A stretch of 6,225 nucleotides of DNA, taken from Bacteroidota bacterium (GTDB lineage: Bacteria > Bacteroidota > Bacteroidia > Cytophagales > Cyclobacteriaceae). Position 1 is the first letter of the stretch. Each line of letters opens with the position of its first letter. Of the stretch, positions 1 to 6,225 are shown one piece after another. The stretch lies in assembly GCA_027297025.1 (NCBI GenBank), contig JAPUIM010000533.1, positions 1-6,225 on the forward strand, given 5' to 3'. The notes beneath the pieces are model-generated. The model was given only the letters and a program-made list of their open reading frames with translations, did not search any database and was not told the origin of the DNA. The translations under genes were made by a program, and so were the position numbers.

Positions 1-566
1 ATTATTTTATCATAACCGCACCGGGAAGATTATGGATTGCCCGAACCTTGCTGGTAGTGTTTAAAAGGCTGTTTTTGTTCAATTCCCATAAATTCTTTTG
101 TGTTAATTATTTTATAGATACTCAGCACAATGAAATTGAGGAGCAAAACCTATTTACCGCCACCGAGTTGGCCACACTAATTCCAACGGTGGGTAAGGAA
201 CCATACCAGAAGTTGATGGACAATAATTCCTGGTACACCAAATATTACCCACAGATGAACGGAAATGGTGTGGACCATATCAAACCGGAACCGCGGGGGA
301 TAATTAAAAAGGGTTTGGAATTTGTTTTGAATAATTTTTGGGGAGATCGTTTGGATCAACAGTTTATGAGGATAACCTTGAAATTCTGGCAAAACAATTA
401 CCATGAACTCCACCAGGGAAAAGATTTTGAGATCGCTTTTAAAACCCGGCGGTATGTTTCCAAAAACCATCCCAAACATTACCAGAAAAAAATAATAGAA
501 TTACACCACACACGTATCAAAGCTTTCGAACTCGCTCATAATTTGGAGGTCAGCAACCATGAGTAA
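1..566 (+). CDS. Nucleotidyltransferase-like protein, C-terminal part (5'-truncated by the window edge)
   Basis: The reading frame is open from the first complete codon at position 3 to TAA at 564-566, giving 187 visible residues with no upstream stop. The TTG at 48 is therefore very unlikely to be the true start, because the frame upstream of it (YFIITAPGRLWIARTLL) looks like continuous protein. The visible part has a hydrophobic/basic stretch (roughly visible residues 1-38), then a segment reading EIEEQNLFTATELATLIP (about 46-63), then a Tyr/Trp-rich region with NNSWYTKYYPQ and a helical, basic C-terminus. From memory, this order (C-x-NY, then NLFTA-E-A-L-P, then an N-x-W-x(3)-Y-P block) resembles the C-terminal half of uncharacterised nucleotidyltransferase-fold proteins found beside sugar and radical SAM genes. 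The catalytic N-terminal part lies outside the window, so the activity cannot be verified. It overlaps the next gene by 8 bases, consistent with translational coupling. The coding status is firm and the family name is tentative. Confidence 0.72.
   Translation, partial: YFIITAPGRLWIARTLLVVFKRLFLFNSHKFFCVNYFIDTQHNEIEEQNLFTATELATLIPTVGKEPYQKLMDNNSWYTKYYPQMNGNGVDHIKPEPRGIIKKGLEFVLNNFWGDRLDQQFMRITLKFWQNNYHELHQGKDFEIAFKTRRYVSKNHPKHYQKKIIELHHTRIKAFELAHNLEVSNHE
545..549 (+). promoter_or_regulatory. Strong Shine-Dalgarno site for the first radical SAM gene
   Basis: GGAGG lies 9 bases before the ATG at 559, inside the 3' end of the preceding gene. It is the only well-spaced, near-consensus ribosome binding site in the window, and it fixes the start of the downstream gene at 559. 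The other genes have weak or displaced sites and appear to depend on translational coupling. Confidence 0.7.
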
Positions 567-2028
567 GATATTATTCACCCACTCCTATTTCTATAAGCTG
601 GACTCCAAACAATGGAGGTTCAAGCAGCCTTATCCTCCTTTGGGAACCATTTTTGCTGCCTCCCTGATGCGGACTCATGGAATGGAAGTGGCACTTTTCG
701 ACACTAATTTAAAAGACAGTCCATCTGAAATAAAACCCTATTTAGAACGAGATAAGCCCGATTACCTGGTCATATATGATGATGGCTTTAATTATCTCAC
801 CAAAATGTGCCTCACCAATATGCGGGAAGCGGCTTGGGAATTGGCCCGCTTAGGAAAAGAATCAGGATGTACTATAATTGTTTGTAGTTCTGATTCTTCT
901 GACCATTTTGATGAATATCTGGATCATCAGGCAGATTATATAATTATCGGTGAAGGAGAGTTCACTTTATTGGAACTTATTAACCTATTGGAATCGGGTA
1001 ATACTGATGCTAAAAACATCCAAGGGCTGGCTTTTAGAAAAGATGGAGAAACCAAATTGACCGAAAAAAGGGCGGTCATCAGCCAACTGGATGAATTACC
1101 GTTGCCGGCATGGGATTTAATTGATATTGAGACCTACCGGGACATTTGGCAAAAACATCATGGCTACTTTTCTTTGAATATTGCCACTACCCGGGGATGC
1201 CCTTTTAAATGCAACTGGTGCGCCAAACCCATCTATGGTAATCGTTATAATACAAGATCACCCCAAAATGTACTTGAAGAAATCACCAATTTGTTGCAAA
1301 CTTATCAGCCGGATCACTTTTGGATGTGTGATGATATTTTTGGACTAAAACCGGGATGGGTTCAGGAATTCAGGGATTTGGTTAAGGAGCGATCTCTACA
1401 ATTTAAATACAAGATCCAATCCAGAGTTGATCTTTTACTGCAGGAGGATACCATTGATGCCCTGGCTCAATCCGGATTGGAAACGGTGTGGGTAGGGGCC
1501 GAATCTGGATCTCAAAAGATACTTGATGCCATGGACAAAGGAACCAAGGTTGAGCAGATTTATCAGGCCACCAAGCTGTTACAGGAAAAAGGAATAAGAG
1601 TGGCCTTTTTTCTGCAATTTGGTTATCTGGGGGAAGAGAGGGAAGATATTGATAGTACCATTCAGATGGTATTGGATTTGATGCCCGACGAAATCGGCAT
1701 ATCCGTTTCCTATCCATTGCCTGGCACTAAGTTTTACGAAAAAGTTAAAACGCAACTTCGGGAAAAAGCCAATTGGTCTGACTCCGATGATCTGGATATG
1801 ATGTTTAACGGGACTTTTCAGCCGGCCTATTATAAGAAATTGCATCGCTTTGTGCACAGCCTTTATCAAAAGCAAAAAGGTTATCAAAGCTGGCAAACTT
1901 TGTTGAGCAATCCTCTGCAAGTTGATCGCAAACATGTAAAATCGGTATTGGCCACGGGGTATTACATTCCCGCCTCGATTATTCAGGGATATCAACTTAA
2001 AAGGTTACAAACTACTACTCCAAGCTAG
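559..2028 (+). CDS. B12-binding-domain radical SAM enzyme (BchE-like architecture)
   Basis: This 489-residue protein has the two-domain layout of cobalamin-dependent radical SAM enzymes. Residues about 1-140 form a Rossmann-like B12-binding domain: PYPPLGTIFAASL at 24-36, a strand ending in D48, and the linking GEGE motif at 131-134. The radical SAM barrel follows, with the iron-sulfur cluster motif CX3CX2C at C214, C218 and C221 (RGCPFKCNWC). Further barrel signatures are CDDIFG, GAESGS around E315, GYLGEE at 355-360 and YPLPGT at 385-390. A helical C-terminal extension of about 90 residues contains NWSDSDDLDMMF. Family knowledge says such proteins use a 4Fe-4S cluster to cleave SAM and often transfer methyl groups through cobalamin to unactivated carbon or phosphorus, although some catalyse ring formation instead. 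The classical DxHxxG cobalamin motif is not visible, as in many relatives. The substrate is unknown. The start is set by GGAGG 9 bases upstream, and the gene overlaps the previous one by 8 bases. Confidence 0.92.
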   Translation: MSKILFTHSYFYKLDSKQWRFKQPYPPLGTIFAASLMRTHGMEVALFDTNLKDSPSEIKPYLERDKPDYLVIYDDGFNYLTKMCLTNMREAAWELARLGKESGCTIIVCSSDSSDHFDEYLDHQADYIIIGEGEFTLLELINLLESGNTDAKNIQGLAFRKDGETKLTEKRAVISQLDELPLPAWDLIDIETYRDIWQKHHGYFSLNIATTRGCPFKCNWCAKPIYGNRYNTRSPQNVLEEITNLLQTYQPDHFWMCDDIFGLKPGWVQEFRDLVKERSLQFKYKIQSRVDLLLQEDTIDALAQSGLETVWVGAESGSQKILDAMDKGTKVEQIYQATKLLQEKGIRVAFFLQFGYLGEEREDIDSTIQMVLDLMPDEIGISVSYPLPGTKFYEKVKTQLREKANWSDSDDLDMMFNGTFQPAYYKKLHRFVHSLYQKQKGYQSWQTLLSNPLQVDRKHVKSVLATGYYIPASIIQGYQLKRLQTTTPS

Positions 2029-2038
2029 GTGCTCAGGT

Positions 2039-2863
2039 ATGTTGAAGGAAGAAAATACAGCAACTCACCAACAAATTAAGGTCAATAGGGCCTTTACCAG
2101 GCAATCTGTGCATTACGATGAAGATGATAAAAAAAATCTGATATTGGCTGATATGCGCCGCCAAGTAAGGGAGCATGTAGAAAGTTTTCTCAAACCCGAT
2201 GACCGCATTTTAGAACTCAACGCAGGCACTGGTCTGGATGCCGTTTACTTTGCCGGAAAAGGGCATAGGGTCCATGCCACAGATTTATCGGATGGTATGA
2301 TCGAGGTCATCAAAAGAAAAGTAAATGATCTCCAGCTTTACTCTCGACTCACTTATCAGCAATGCTCCTATGATCAATTGGACGAGTTAAATTTAGGGCG
2401 GTTTGATTACTTGTTTTCAAATTTCGGGGGGCTGAATTGTATCCGGGATCTGGATATGGTGACTTGTCATTTCCCTTCGATATTGAAAAAAAACGGGTAT
2501 GCGACTATAGTTGTCATGCCAAGGGTCAGCCTTTGGGAATTATTATCTGTGTTTAAAGGTAACACCAGGGCTTTTAGACGATTTAACAAAAACGGAACCA
2601 TAAGCCACCTGGAAGGGGAATATTTTATAACTTATTACCATACGCTTTCCACCATCATCAAAGCTTTCGGACCTGATTTCCAATTGGTGAAAGTTGAAGG
2701 GTTGAGCGCCCTAATCCCCCCTCCCCATAAAGCTGCCTTTCCCCAGCAACGACCGGGTTTATATCGATTTCTAAAGAAATTGGACAAAAAGGTTAGGGGA
2801 CATTTCCCTTTCAATAGATGGGCTGACCACATTATTACCACTTTCCAGTTTGTGCCTCAATAG
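2039..2863 (+). CDS. Class I SAM-dependent methyltransferase (SNFGGLNC type)
   Basis: This 274-residue cytosolic-looking protein has a Rossmann-fold methyltransferase domain. The SAM-binding motif I is LELNAGTGLDA at 58-68, and the acidic residue expected to contact the ribose is D82, in ATDLSDGM. SNFGGLNC at 127-134 occupies the motif IV region, and a proline-rich loop PPPHKAAF at 227-234 and a WADHIITTF segment near the C-terminus follow. These are recalled as features of a widespread methyltransferase group common in biosynthetic clusters. The acceptor (O, N or C) cannot be told from sequence. It starts 10 bases after the first radical SAM gene with only a weak AGG upstream, so translation probably depends on ribosomes arriving from upstream. 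Two A8 runs (2129-2136 and 2486-2493) lie inside the gene, and the frame is intact through both. There are no signal peptide or membrane segments. Confidence 0.9.
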   Translation: MLKEENTATHQQIKVNRAFTRQSVHYDEDDKKNLILADMRRQVREHVESFLKPDDRILELNAGTGLDAVYFAGKGHRVHATDLSDGMIEVIKRKVNDLQLYSRLTYQQCSYDQLDELNLGRFDYLFSNFGGLNCIRDLDMVTCHFPSILKKNGYATIVVMPRVSLWELLSVFKGNTRAFRRFNKNGTISHLEGEYFITYYHTLSTIIKAFGPDFQLVKVEGLSALIPPPHKAAFPQQRPGLYRFLKKLDKKVRGHFPFNRWADHIITTFQFVPQ

Positions 2864-2885
2864 ATTCAAAGGAATGCAAGTGGAG

Positions 2886-3632
2886 ATGAACCAAACCGAT
2901 ATTAGCCAGCAAAGAAAGTCCTTTGAAAATTTATATATAAAAGTCCGGGAGTTGGAAGGGAGGATATTTAGTGATAACGAGGTAAAAGAACTCCCTCATG
3001 TTTCCAGGAACAATCCCCACTACCGAGAGTGGTACCTCAGGGCACAAACCAGCGAAAGAATATTGGCTTACCTGAAAACTCTAAAAATGCCTTTGAAAAT
3101 CCTCGATCTGGGCTGTGGCAATGGTTGGTTTACCGCCAAACTGGCTAATTTGGACCAAGTGGAGGTATTGGGATTGGATATTAACTCCAGAGAATTAGAA
3201 CAAGCAAACCGGGTTTTTCAGCTACCCAATTTACGATTTGATTATGGTGATATTTTCAAAGACATTTTTCCTGAGCAGTCCTTTAATATATGCACAATAA
3301 ACAGTGCAATGCAGTATTTCCCAGACCTGAATAAATTGCTCAACCGGTTAAATTATTTTCTTGCGGAGAAGGGAGAAATCCATATATTGGATAGTCTCGT
3401 TTACCTGCCCTATCAAGTGCAATCAACTAAGGAAAGGTCACGTTTTTATTACCGCGAGTTGGGAGTTGAGGAAATGGCCGACCATTATTTTTACCACAGT
3501 TTTGACGACTTTAGAAAATATTCTTATGACTTATTTTATAATCCCCTTAGTCTAAAGAATAACTTGAAAAAATTGATAGGACTAAAGGTCTCCCCTTTTC
3601 CATGGATCAAGATCACAAAATCTGAGTTATGA
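2886..3632 (+). CDS. Class I SAM-dependent methyltransferase (second, unrelated type)
   Basis: This protein has 248 residues from the ATG at 2886. The N-terminal helical region (ENLYIKVRELEGRIFSDNEV, 14-33, then HYREWYLRAQTSERI) precedes the methyltransferase core. SAM-binding motif I is ILDLGCGNGWF at 72-82, followed by the acidic residue of LGLDINSREL and an NSAMQYF motif IV region. The C-terminal part ends in SPFPWIKI at 236-243. It is clearly different from the methyltransferase just upstream, so this is not a tandem duplication. The substrate is unknown. The start is uncertain: the frame is open back to a TTG at 2850, which would overlap the upstream gene, and ATG also occurs at 2874. 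The ATG at 2886 is preferred because AAGGA at 2869-2873 precedes it, although at a longish spacing of 12 bases. The stop TGA at 3630-3632 overlaps the next start as ATGA. The methyltransferase call is firm; the exact start is not. Confidence 0.88.
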   Translation: MNQTDISQQRKSFENLYIKVRELEGRIFSDNEVKELPHVSRNNPHYREWYLRAQTSERILAYLKTLKMPLKILDLGCGNGWFTAKLANLDQVEVLGLDINSRELEQANRVFQLPNLRFDYGDIFKDIFPEQSFNICTINSAMQYFPDLNKLLNRLNYFLAEKGEIHILDSLVYLPYQVQSTKERSRFYYRELGVEEMADHYFYHSFDDFRKYSYDLFYNPLSLKNNLKKLIGLKVSPFPWIKITKSEL

Positions 3633-4828
3633 TAGCCCCTAAACACTTGGTCCGCATCGACCGGCTATTCAAAATTCCCTATTATCTGGTTTGGGAGGTT
3701 TATATAGGCCTGAGGGGGCTTTTTCCATTAAAAGAGAGGAGTCAAAATGTGGTGGTTTTAAAGTTGTTGGGGATGGGTAGTATTATTAAACTGGCATCTC
3801 TTTACCAAAAGTTTCAGGTAGATAAATCCAGGGTAACAATCTGCACATTCGAACAAAACCAGGCATTATGCGACTTACTAGGGTTTGATAACCGTATTTT
3901 CATCCGCACCAACAACCTGACGGTATTTTTCCTGGATAACATCAAAGCCTTCTTAAAAGTACAAAAGATCAAGCCTCGATATATAATCGACCTGGAGCGC
4001 TGTTCCAATGCGGTGGGTTTGCTCCGGGCTTTTCTTGGAGTGGCCGGTGGCAGCAAAACCATTTCATTCATCAAGAATCGTCATGACAGGCTGTTTCGTC
4101 ACGACAAAATGTTGTCAATGTGGAGCTGCACTCATGAACAGTTACTGGTTAAAACTATAGATCTTTTGCCCAAAAAGGAAATGGGTTCGGAGCTTAGTCA
4201 TGTTAACGTGCAACCAACCAAAATCCTGTTCAATATTAATGCCAGCGACTACGTTATTGCCAGGCGTTATTCCCGGGATTATTGTGGTGAGTTAATAGAG
4301 TCCTTGCACCAATGGAATCCCCATCTTGTTTTTTATTTGACTGGTTCAGAAAGTGAACAAAATTATGTGGATGTATTGGCAAGGAAATGGGCGAATGGTG
4401 ACATAGCAGTACACAATATGGCGGGCAAATGGAATCTGGACCAATTGACCAATCATCTGGCAGATTGTTTATTCTTCATTACCAACGATTCCGGTCCTAT
4501 GCACCTGGCAGCCTATATGGGCGTTCCCACCATAGCCATCTGGGGACCAACTCATTACCGGCACTTTGGTTATGAAAAGAACGCCAATGTATTCAATATC
4601 TCACTGGAATTACCTTGCTCGCCATGTTTTACCGATCCCACCTCCAAGGCAGCAGCTTTTTGTCAGGGAAAGATCAATTGTATGAGTGAGCTTTCACCTG
4701 CGATCATTGAAGAAAAAATTAAACACTTTGTCAATCAAGTGCCATCCTCCCGAAAAATATTGTTCCCGGAAGGCAAAACCATAGAATTAAAAGAGCCGGA
4801 GATGGCCCAAAAAGTAAAGTATGGCTGA
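3629..4828 (+). CDS. Glycosyltransferase family 9 (heptosyltransferase-like) protein
   Basis: This 399-residue protein has the GT-B double-Rossmann layout. The first domain begins with VVVLKLLGMGSIIKLAS (41-57), the GT9 N-terminal strand-loop. The second carries the hallmark nucleotide-sugar region TNDSGPMHLAAYMGVPTIAI starting at T285, with H292, followed by WGPTHYRHFGY. A cysteine pattern C330, C333, C345 and C351 (PCSPCF, then CQGKINCM) matches the family's usual C-terminal signature. GT9 enzymes transfer heptose or related sugars from ADP- or other nucleotide-activated donors to lipid A core or other glycan acceptors at the inner face of the cytoplasmic membrane. Two oddities stand out: an N-terminal lead of about 40 residues with a hydrophobic/aromatic patch (16-34) that might help membrane association, and Ser51 where heptosyltransferases such as WaaC usually have the catalytic Asp (G-D). 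The donor and acceptor are unknown. Start and stop overlap both neighbours (ATGA at 3629-3632; 8 bases at 4821-4828). Confidence 0.9.
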   Translation: MIAPKHLVRIDRLFKIPYYLVWEVYIGLRGLFPLKERSQNVVVLKLLGMGSIIKLASLYQKFQVDKSRVTICTFEQNQALCDLLGFDNRIFIRTNNLTVFFLDNIKAFLKVQKIKPRYIIDLERCSNAVGLLRAFLGVAGGSKTISFIKNRHDRLFRHDKMLSMWSCTHEQLLVKTIDLLPKKEMGSELSHVNVQPTKILFNINASDYVIARRYSRDYCGELIESLHQWNPHLVFYLTGSESEQNYVDVLARKWANGDIAVHNMAGKWNLDQLTNHLADCLFFITNDSGPMHLAAYMGVPTIAIWGPTHYRHFGYEKNANVFNISLELPCSPCFTDPTSKAAAFCQGKINCMSELSPAIIEEKIKHFVNQVPSSRKILFPEGKTIELKEPEMAQKVKYG

Positions 4829-6209
4829 AAAAGTACTTTTCCTAAATCCACCTGGCGCTAAAATTTACATTAGGGACTACTATTGCTCCAAAGTATCAAA
4901 AGCCTATTATTTACCTCAGCCGGTTGATCTGCTAATGCAGACTGGTTTTTTTGCCCAAAAAGGTTACCAGTTGAAGGTAGTGGATGCCATAGCCGAGAAA
5001 TTAACGGTGAAAGCCACCAATGCCCAAATAAAGGAATTTCAACCCGATCTGATCATCACTTTATGCGGGTCGGTATCTTTTGGTGAAGATGAGGCCTTTT
5101 TCCAACAATTGAAAAATGAAATTCCCCAAACTAAAATCTTATCTTCTGGAGACCTGTTTCTGGAAGATCCTGAATATTTCCTGAAATGCCATCCCTGGCT
5201 AGACGGAATTATCACCGATTTTTTTAGCGATTGTGGCTTGAAATATTTGGAGGGGAGCACCCACTTTATTAATGGATTGGTAACTAGAGAAAATGGAAAG
5301 CCCGCAACCAGTAATGGAAAGCAAAAATGGATAGACATTCCCCGACCCAGTCATGAATTGTTTAAGAACCATCTCTACCGCATGCCTTTTGCCAACCAAT
5401 ATCCCATGGCTACCGTGCTCACCAACTACGCCTGCCCTTATCCCTGTACGTTTTGTATCATGTCCACTTTGGAATTCAAAAGCAGAGAGCCTAACCAGGT
5501 TATGGAAGAGCTACTATTTTTGAAAGAAAACGGCATACGTTATCTTTATTTTTCCGACCAGACCTTTTACCTGCACCGGGAAGCCACCGAAAAGATCCTC
5601 GATTTCATGATAGAAGAGGAATTGGGATTTAGTTGGGTTTGCTTTTCCCGAGTAGATGTGTTGGATGAAGATAAAATGAGGAAAATGAAAGCAGCCGGCT
5701 GTAATGTGATAATGTTTGGCGTGGAATGGGCAGAAGATGAATATTGTCAAAAATACAAAAAACAATATACCTTGGCGCAGGTGAAAAATACTTTCGAACT
5801 TGCAAAAAAAGTGGGGATAAAAAGGATGGGTACTTTTTTAATTGGGGTACCGGGGCAAAGCGCTCAGTCCATTAAAAACACAGTAAATTTTGCCATCCAA
5901 ATCAACGCCGATTATGCCTCATTCAACGTGGCCGTCCCACGAGCCAATACCTCTTTCAGGTCTGAGGCCATTGAACAGGGATTGATTTCGCCCGATGAAC
6001 GGGTGATGGACCAATCGGGTAGTTTTATTACTATGGGAACCGGATTGGTTTCACCTGAAGAGATCATGTCTCTTAAAAAGGAAGCATACCGCAGGTTTTA
6101 CTTCCGGCCTACCTACCTGGCAAAAAGATTGCTCGAAATCGAAAATTATCAGGAGCTCAAGACCCATCTGCGGGAGGGATATCACATTTTGAAAAGTCTC
6201 ATTGGTTAA
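4821..6209 (+). CDS. Second B12-binding-domain radical SAM enzyme (RDYYCSK type)
   Basis: This 462-residue protein begins with KVLFLNPPG and then RDYYCSKVSKAYY at 18-30. A Rossmann-like B12-binding region follows, with VVDAIAEKLT around D55 and QPDLIITLCG. The radical SAM cluster motif is CX3CX2C at C205, C209 and C212 (YACPYPCTFC), followed by YLYFSDQTF, a modified GVEWAED segment at 300-306, and IGVPGQS at 341-347. It differs from the first radical SAM enzyme in lacking a GEGE linker, in having GVEW rather than GAESG, and in having AVPRANTSF at 371-379 where YPLPGTKF is found in the first, so the two are not recent duplicates. The N-terminal RDYYCSK signature is recalled from uncharacterised B12 radical SAM proteins in several phyla. 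The reaction is unknown; cobalamin-dependent methylation or carbon-carbon bond chemistry is the usual expectation. No good ribosome binding site precedes the ATG; an 8-base overlap with the glycosyltransferase gene implies coupling. Confidence 0.91.
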   Translation: MAEKVLFLNPPGAKIYIRDYYCSKVSKAYYLPQPVDLLMQTGFFAQKGYQLKVVDAIAEKLTVKATNAQIKEFQPDLIITLCGSVSFGEDEAFFQQLKNEIPQTKILSSGDLFLEDPEYFLKCHPWLDGIITDFFSDCGLKYLEGSTHFINGLVTRENGKPATSNGKQKWIDIPRPSHELFKNHLYRMPFANQYPMATVLTNYACPYPCTFCIMSTLEFKSREPNQVMEELLFLKENGIRYLYFSDQTFYLHREATEKILDFMIEEELGFSWVCFSRVDVLDEDKMRKMKAAGCNVIMFGVEWAEDEYCQKYKKQYTLAQVKNTFELAKKVGIKRMGTFLIGVPGQSAQSIKNTVNFAIQINADYASFNVAVPRANTSFRSEAIEQGLISPDERVMDQSGSFITMGTGLVSPEEIMSLKKEAYRRFYFRPTYLAKRLLEIENYQELKTHLREGYHILKSLIG

Positions 6210-6225
6210 TGCTGCCTTGGAAACC
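6209..6225 (+). CDS. Probable start of a further operon gene (cut by window edge)
   Basis: The TAA stop of the second radical SAM gene (6207-6209) is immediately overlapped by ATG at 6209-6211, forming TAATG. The frame then reads M-L-P-W-K before the window ends. The preceding gene junctions also use start-stop overlaps, so this is plausibly the next gene of the operon. Only five codons are visible, so no function can be given. A chance ATG is possible, and no clear ribosome binding site is seen just upstream. Confidence 0.4.

Follow-up and report, generated by a model that had tools for sequence, protein, structure and literature searches.

What is built by a run of genes that joins two radical S-adenosylmethionine (SAM) enzymes with two methyltransferases, a family 9 glycosyltransferase (GT9) and a nucleotidyltransferase-like protein (NT), and do these genes belong together? 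The question is raised by a 6,225-nucleotide stretch of a Bacteroidota bacterium (the window), which is the entire contig C483 of a 2.66-Mb assembly in 560 contigs (82% complete); as the stretch is a complete contig, extending it was ruled out. The six same-strand genes that an earlier note had read from the letters were all found on the plus strand at the spacings claimed (−8, +10, +22, −4 and −8), and the likely seventh gene was found as well, in that the stop of the second radical SAM gene, rSAM-B, overlaps the next ATG (at 6209) in a TAATG. Comparison with related loci revealed that the six genes are not one conserved unit; they are a strict core, composed of NT, the radical SAM enzyme rSAM-A and the class I methyltransferase MT, plus accessories, namely a second class I methyltransferase (M2), GT9 and rSAM-B. 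The cassette is likely one for the radical tailoring of sugars in a heptose-containing glycan, with both product and reactions predicted.

The core was delineated in two sets of genomes, which may overlap with each other, as may those of the rSAM-B searches described below, and the locus maps cover open reading frames (ORFs) of at least 60 residues. A scan of named genomes yielded 127 rSAM-A relatives, the best 80 of which (55–70% identity) were kept, and a separate draw comprised 395 genomes of Bacteroidota. In this draw rSAM-A was detected in 27 genomes, the window's own included, NT matched the identical 27, and MT matched 35, i.e. all 27 with rSAM-A and eight others. The same association was seen at the locus level: among the 50 named loci flanked by 6 kb or more in both directions, NT was present in 46 and MT in 49, compared with 35 for RC (a paralogue of rSAM-A of roughly 35% identity), nine for M2, four for GT9 and one for rSAM-B; and in the other 26 rSAM-A-bearing genomes of the phylum draw, NT was found at 26 loci and MT at 25 by threshold, with the 26th MT (L158) recovered by the genome search. 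NT lies immediately upstream of rSAM-A on the same strand in 61 of the 75 named and 19 of the 25 phylum-draw loci with enough sequence, MT is directly downstream of, or fused to, rSAM-A in 67 of 74 and 15 of 26, and the fusion of rSAM-A and MT into one gene was observed in L094 and L156. This strict co-occurrence, the adjacency and the fusions are strong evidence that NT, rSAM-A and MT share one function. All six window genes together were found in none of the 106 other labelled loci.

The earlier note had proposed that the rSAM-A (DSDDL-type), MT (NFGGLNC) and rSAM-B (RDYYCSK-type) proteins would co-occur in many phyla. The first two do occur strictly together, and with NT, but rSAM-B proved to be a rare accessory, and the broad spread was not borne out, since 79 of the best 80 among the 127 rSAM-A relatives bear Bacteroidota names. 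The remaining one, L050, is titled Bifidobacterium breve and has the same neighbours as the flavobacterial loci L045, L055 and L057, so the bin is probably misnamed. Named cultured hosts of the core include Ohtaekwangia koreensis (L022) and Chryseolinea sp. H1M3-3 (L026). Several other loci deviate in gene structure: rSAM-A is split into two ORFs (240 and 244 residues) beside NT, MT and RC at L083:7394-8851, which was excluded from the counts, and more fusions may exist at L145:10743-12731 (NT within a 662-residue ORF) and L161:10250-11953 (MT within a 567-residue ORF). An MT-like gene without an rSAM-A or NT match at the thresholds used was noted in G076, G113, G169, G180, G185, G306, G322 and G439, and MT relatives may work outside the core too.

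Accessory as it is, rSAM-B has a constant partner. It was detected in only one of the 395 phylum genomes (the window's own), in one of 49 named rSAM-A genomes searched (drawn from the 80 loci), in one of 52 genomes from the genus to which L069 (titled Aquimarina) belongs and in two of 214 of that family, a rarity that overturned its candidacy as a core member. At all five loci where it was located (the window, L040, L185, L189 and L190), rSAM-B is directly preceded by GT9, and all five genomes also have rSAM-A, in G536 on a separate contig. The wider rSAM-B family comprises 823 relatives at E ≤ 1e-40; among the best 120 of these, most of those with names are from Bacteroidota, among them a close relative from Spongiimicrobium salis (P0061, 57% identity), whereas Hydrogenedentota and archaea contribute one each, the archaeal one being a Woesearchaeota radical SAM protein (P0119) with 45% identity to rSAM-B across 99% of its length.

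The genes surrounding this pair narrow the product down. Just 5′ of GT9 in L185, L189 and L190 stand the ADP-heptose biosynthesis genes GmhB, HldD, HldE and GmhA; in L185, HldD, GmhB and both HldE domains scored above the curated cut-offs and GmhA slightly under, and the L189 and L190 genes were named by their similarity to those of L185 (62–88% identity). No heptose genes were found within the stretch of L040. Because HldE-like genes are widespread (31 of 35 genomes), only their position is informative. The window GT9 belongs to glycosyltransferase family 9 (Pfam Glyco_transf_9, 76.3 bits; cut-off 22), the family of WaaF, the ADP-heptose:lipopolysaccharide heptosyltransferase II, and its nearest PDB entry is this very enzyme (1psw, 33.6 bits); yet it scored 55.2 bits against the heptosyltransferase II model TIGR02195, below the cut-off of 134.6, and differs from WaaF in sitting within a radical SAM locus. 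As the ADP-heptose genes adjoin GT9 in three relatives, GT9 probably is, or is closely related to, a heptosyltransferase. Downstream of rSAM-B, further glycosyltransferases follow: the next gene is of the PMT_2 type in three of the four other loci (by a Pfam match in L185 and by resemblance to the L185 gene in L040 and L190), where GT2, GT87 and another radical SAM enzyme are also encoded, and in L189 it is a GT87 relative, accompanied by a radical SAM enzyme. In total, L189 harbours six radical SAM genes in 19.9 kb, i.e. rSAM-A, RC, rSAM-B, a B12-type enzyme, a SPASM enzyme and R4, a further radical SAM enzyme.

Glycosyltransferases were also enriched around the core itself. Among 120 of 259 neighbour genes scanned, all from ORFs of at least 150 residues, eight matched Glycos_transf_1, five GT9, three GT2 and three GT87, versus three for Glycos_transf_1 and at most one for each of the others among 120 of 204 control genes from 20 regions of rSAM-A-bearing genomes. 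Fisher p for the excess is 0.0005, or 0.01 when the control is taken as 6, with the sums assuming that the four families match different genes and with the families picked after the table had been seen. An O-antigen ligase gene (Wzy_C) lies near the core in L046 (its cluster, n = 5), and GT2 and flippase-like genes do so in some loci, the flippase label coming from the appearance of the sequence, with no Pfam match in the single copy tested. No named pathway could be read from the flanking genes, and no description of the locus was found, by title or abstract start, among the openly licensed papers listed. Of the three product classes that the earlier note had left side by side (lipid, glycan or small molecule), glycan fits these neighbourhoods best. 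Somewhat favoured among the readings, accordingly, is that the conserved Bacteroidota core and the accessory GT9–rSAM-B pair together make a lipid-linked glycan of the cell surface, with radical chemistry predicted to remodel its sugars.

Both radical SAM enzymes are bona fide members of the superfamily (Pfam Radical_SAM, 69.5 and 83.3 bits; cut-off 29.5), and the CxxxCxxC motif was conserved in 105 of 105 rSAM-A and 24 of 24 rSAM-B family sequences. Alignments were built from 36 rSAM-A, 33 NT, 23 MT and 24 rSAM-B sequences picked for diversity. Pfam likewise upheld the calls of class I methyltransferases and of GT9, but not the B12 label that the earlier note had attached to both radical SAM enzymes: the B12-binding domain scored 18.5 bits in rSAM-A, under the cut-off of 32.1, and was absent from the Pfam matches of rSAM-B. 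The predicted fold of rSAM-A aligns along its length not only with OxsB, TsrM and CysS but equally with AprD4. A Gly-Gly pair at residues 86–135, which we take to contact cobalamin, was found in one of 105 rSAM-A and none of 24 rSAM-B sequences versus 56 of 56 RC and 38 of 38 R4 sequences; in L189, RC and another radical SAM enzyme passed the B12-binding cut-off (42.2 and 64.1 bits) and R4 failed it (24.4). Among the 120 listed rSAM-B relatives, four (P0007, P0114, P0116 and P0119) carry a precomputed B12-binding domain, which makes the loss of cobalamin across the whole rSAM-B family less probable.

By family models, a role of these enzymes in lipids has to be considered, namely that the head group or the chain of a membrane lipid is modified, as in the hopanoid cyclitol ether formation by HpnJ, and that the glycosyltransferases merely decorate the lipid. 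The HpnJ model aligns with rSAM-B over residues 51–458, most of the model, and both enzymes accompany a glycosyltransferase; rSAM-A matches the models of BchE, the anaerobic Mg-protoporphyrin ester cyclase (152.6 bits, the top NCBIfam model among those listed), HpnJ (130.5 bits) and a ladderane-type enzyme (114.2 bits). These scores are nevertheless far under the curated cut-offs (158 bits versus 577.6 for rSAM-B and HpnJ; 481.35 required for BchE), and no NCBIfam radical SAM equivalog among the best 25 models for each enzyme (of 40 and 29 matched) reached its cut-off. The window genes include neither HpnI, HpnK or other hopanoid genes nor chlorophyll genes. No lipid cyclase was seen among the 25 of 137 neighbour families listed, and the ligase, flippase-like and several glycosyltransferase genes of some loci point away from a lipid product, which we therefore consider improbable.

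Solved structures point in another direction. AprD4, the radical SAM diol dehydratase of apramycin biosynthesis, is the best PDB match of rSAM-B (119.6 bits by profile) and the closest fold to rSAM-A, followed by OxsB, the cobalamin-dependent ring-contraction enzyme of oxetanocin A (427 residues aligned, 17% identity); both AprD4 and OxsB act on sugars. The window enzymes differ from both: they scored 62.7 and 94.4 bits against the AprD4 equivalog cut-off of 500, OxsB is longer (727–744 residues) and binds cobalamin, and the window genes include neither an AprD3-type reductase nor an OxsA-type HD protein.

The nucleotidyltransferase call for the first ORF rests on its full-length relatives, because the window copy begins just past the GS...DxD motif, the contig end cutting off the portion upstream that holds it. 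Identity to the six best of these relatives (310–337 residues) is 46–52%. The full-length proteins possess an N-terminal winged helix, and S112, G113, D125 and D127 were invariant across 33 aligned relatives. NTP_transf_2 and Polbeta were each matched in 26 of the 33 at E ≤ 0.1 (best 4.6e-06), and the precomputed annotation of some relatives lists these domains; the L021 relative stayed under the Pfam gathering scores (Polbeta 20.3 bits, cut-off 26.9; NTP_transf_2 17.5 bits, cut-off 21). The NT structure was predicted with high model confidence (pLDDT 93.6) and gave only weak fold matches, none of them reliable, the best by Foldseek being aminoglycoside nucleotidyltransferases.

These likenesses could suggest that the genes form a cluster making a small glycoside as a secondary metabolite, akin to the pathways for aminoglycoside or nucleoside antibiotics, from which AprD4 and OxsB come, and the patchy distribution of the core (27 of 395 genomes) would suit it. 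The NT match is close to background, however, and in several loci the core stands amid surface-glycan-type genes (O-antigen ligase, GT87, PMT_2 and GT2), making such a cluster quite improbable. That a protein, peptide or nucleic acid is modified, or phages are warded off, is very improbable: MgmA and TsrM are close folds of rSAM-A, NT has its winged helix and weak matches to MNT antitoxins and the Hailong HalB structure, and both methyltransferases partly match the MADS mad2 model (48.1 and 54.8 bits), but the PADLOC matches are partial, confined to methyltransferase and radical SAM domains of a general kind (28.9 and 27.1 bits for the latter), on which ground a defence role was rejected.

For the lipid-linked surface glycan, a route can be sketched from gene content. 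The core would make or mark an unusual sugar, in which NT probably activates or marks an intermediate with a nucleotide (the weakest step, NT having weak model matches only), rSAM-A would activate a C–H bond of a core sugar by chemistry related to that of rSAM-B, and MT, fused to rSAM-A in two genomes, would methylate the same intermediate. GT9 would add heptose or a similar sugar to the lipid-linked glycan, and rSAM-B may then alter the added sugar through the 5′-deoxyadenosyl radical, either removing a hydroxyl as AprD4 does or rearranging the sugar as HpnJ does a sugar head group; lipid-carrier glycosyltransferases and the flippase-like protein would complete and export the glycan. A bolder version is that in some Bacteroidota a single locus supplies as many as six radical SAM enzymes for assembling a surface glycan that contains heptose, that these enzymes alter the carbon skeleton or the oxygen pattern of its sugars within a lipid-linked polysaccharide, and that rSAM-A and rSAM-B represent two new families of AprD4-like sugar enzymes which have lost cobalamin; we put this forward tentatively, as rather unlikely.

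Around the core, the presence of RC varies with the type of MT. The window MT is of type c6. Among the 80 named loci, RC accompanied 46 of the 51 with c2 only, none of the 16 with c6 only, none of the four with both and one of the nine in which neither type was called; in the phylum draw it occurred in three of 22 c6-only and two of two c2-only loci. RC was absent from the window and was not found elsewhere in the incomplete genome of its host, where the best match was rSAM-A itself (33%), followed by weaker paralogues; the contigs C452, C444 and C553, considered as RC sites, had unrelated neighbours. M2 was present in 12 of 80 named and seven of 26 phylum-draw loci. A second recurring pair near the core consists of R4 (26 of 80 and 13 of 26 loci) and the small methyltransferase M5 (20 of 80 and five of 26), seen for example at L185:854-3048 and L189:17786-19900. 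RC is itself adjoined by a lipoprotein-like protein of about 370 residues (L189:4713-5825, L190:16324-17406, L032 and others); the L032 copy has a CxxCH motif, and the L189 copy matched no Pfam family. Within the window, the counts of predicted promoters and terminators matched those of shuffled sequences (16 versus 15.6 and 6 versus 7.0), and a plasmid origin was rejected, as tblastn against plasmids returned 197 records that were all below 60% identity (24–28% in the ten listed).

Table. Genes of the 6,225-nucleotide window, with positions counted from its first letter
Feature	Positions	Strand	Basis and role
NT (ORF1)	3..566	+	C-terminal 187 residues, open at the 5′ end; core gene
rSAM-A (DSDDL type)	559..2028	+	core radical SAM enzyme; CxxxCxxC at residues 214-221
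MT (NFGGLNC class I methyltransferase)	2039..2863	+	Pfam, alignment, fusions; core gene
M2 (second class I methyltransferase)	2886..3632	+	Pfam; TTG start at 2850 also possible; accessory
GT9 (heptosyltransferase-like glycosyltransferase)	3629..4828	+	Pfam Glyco_transf_9; accessory
rSAM-B (RDYYCSK type)	4821..6209	+	Pfam Radical_SAM; rare accessory, directly 3′ of GT9
Start of likely seventh gene	6209..6225	+	TAATG overlap; predicted PMT_2-type glycosyltransferase

Sugar-modifying radical SAM enzymes have been described for a few antibiotics and for hopanoid head groups, and a conserved cassette that apparently brings this chemistry into surface glycans would point to undescribed sugars. The gene set is compact and testable, with named cultured hosts for its core, and the locus allows a direct test of when a B12-like radical SAM fold really carries B12.

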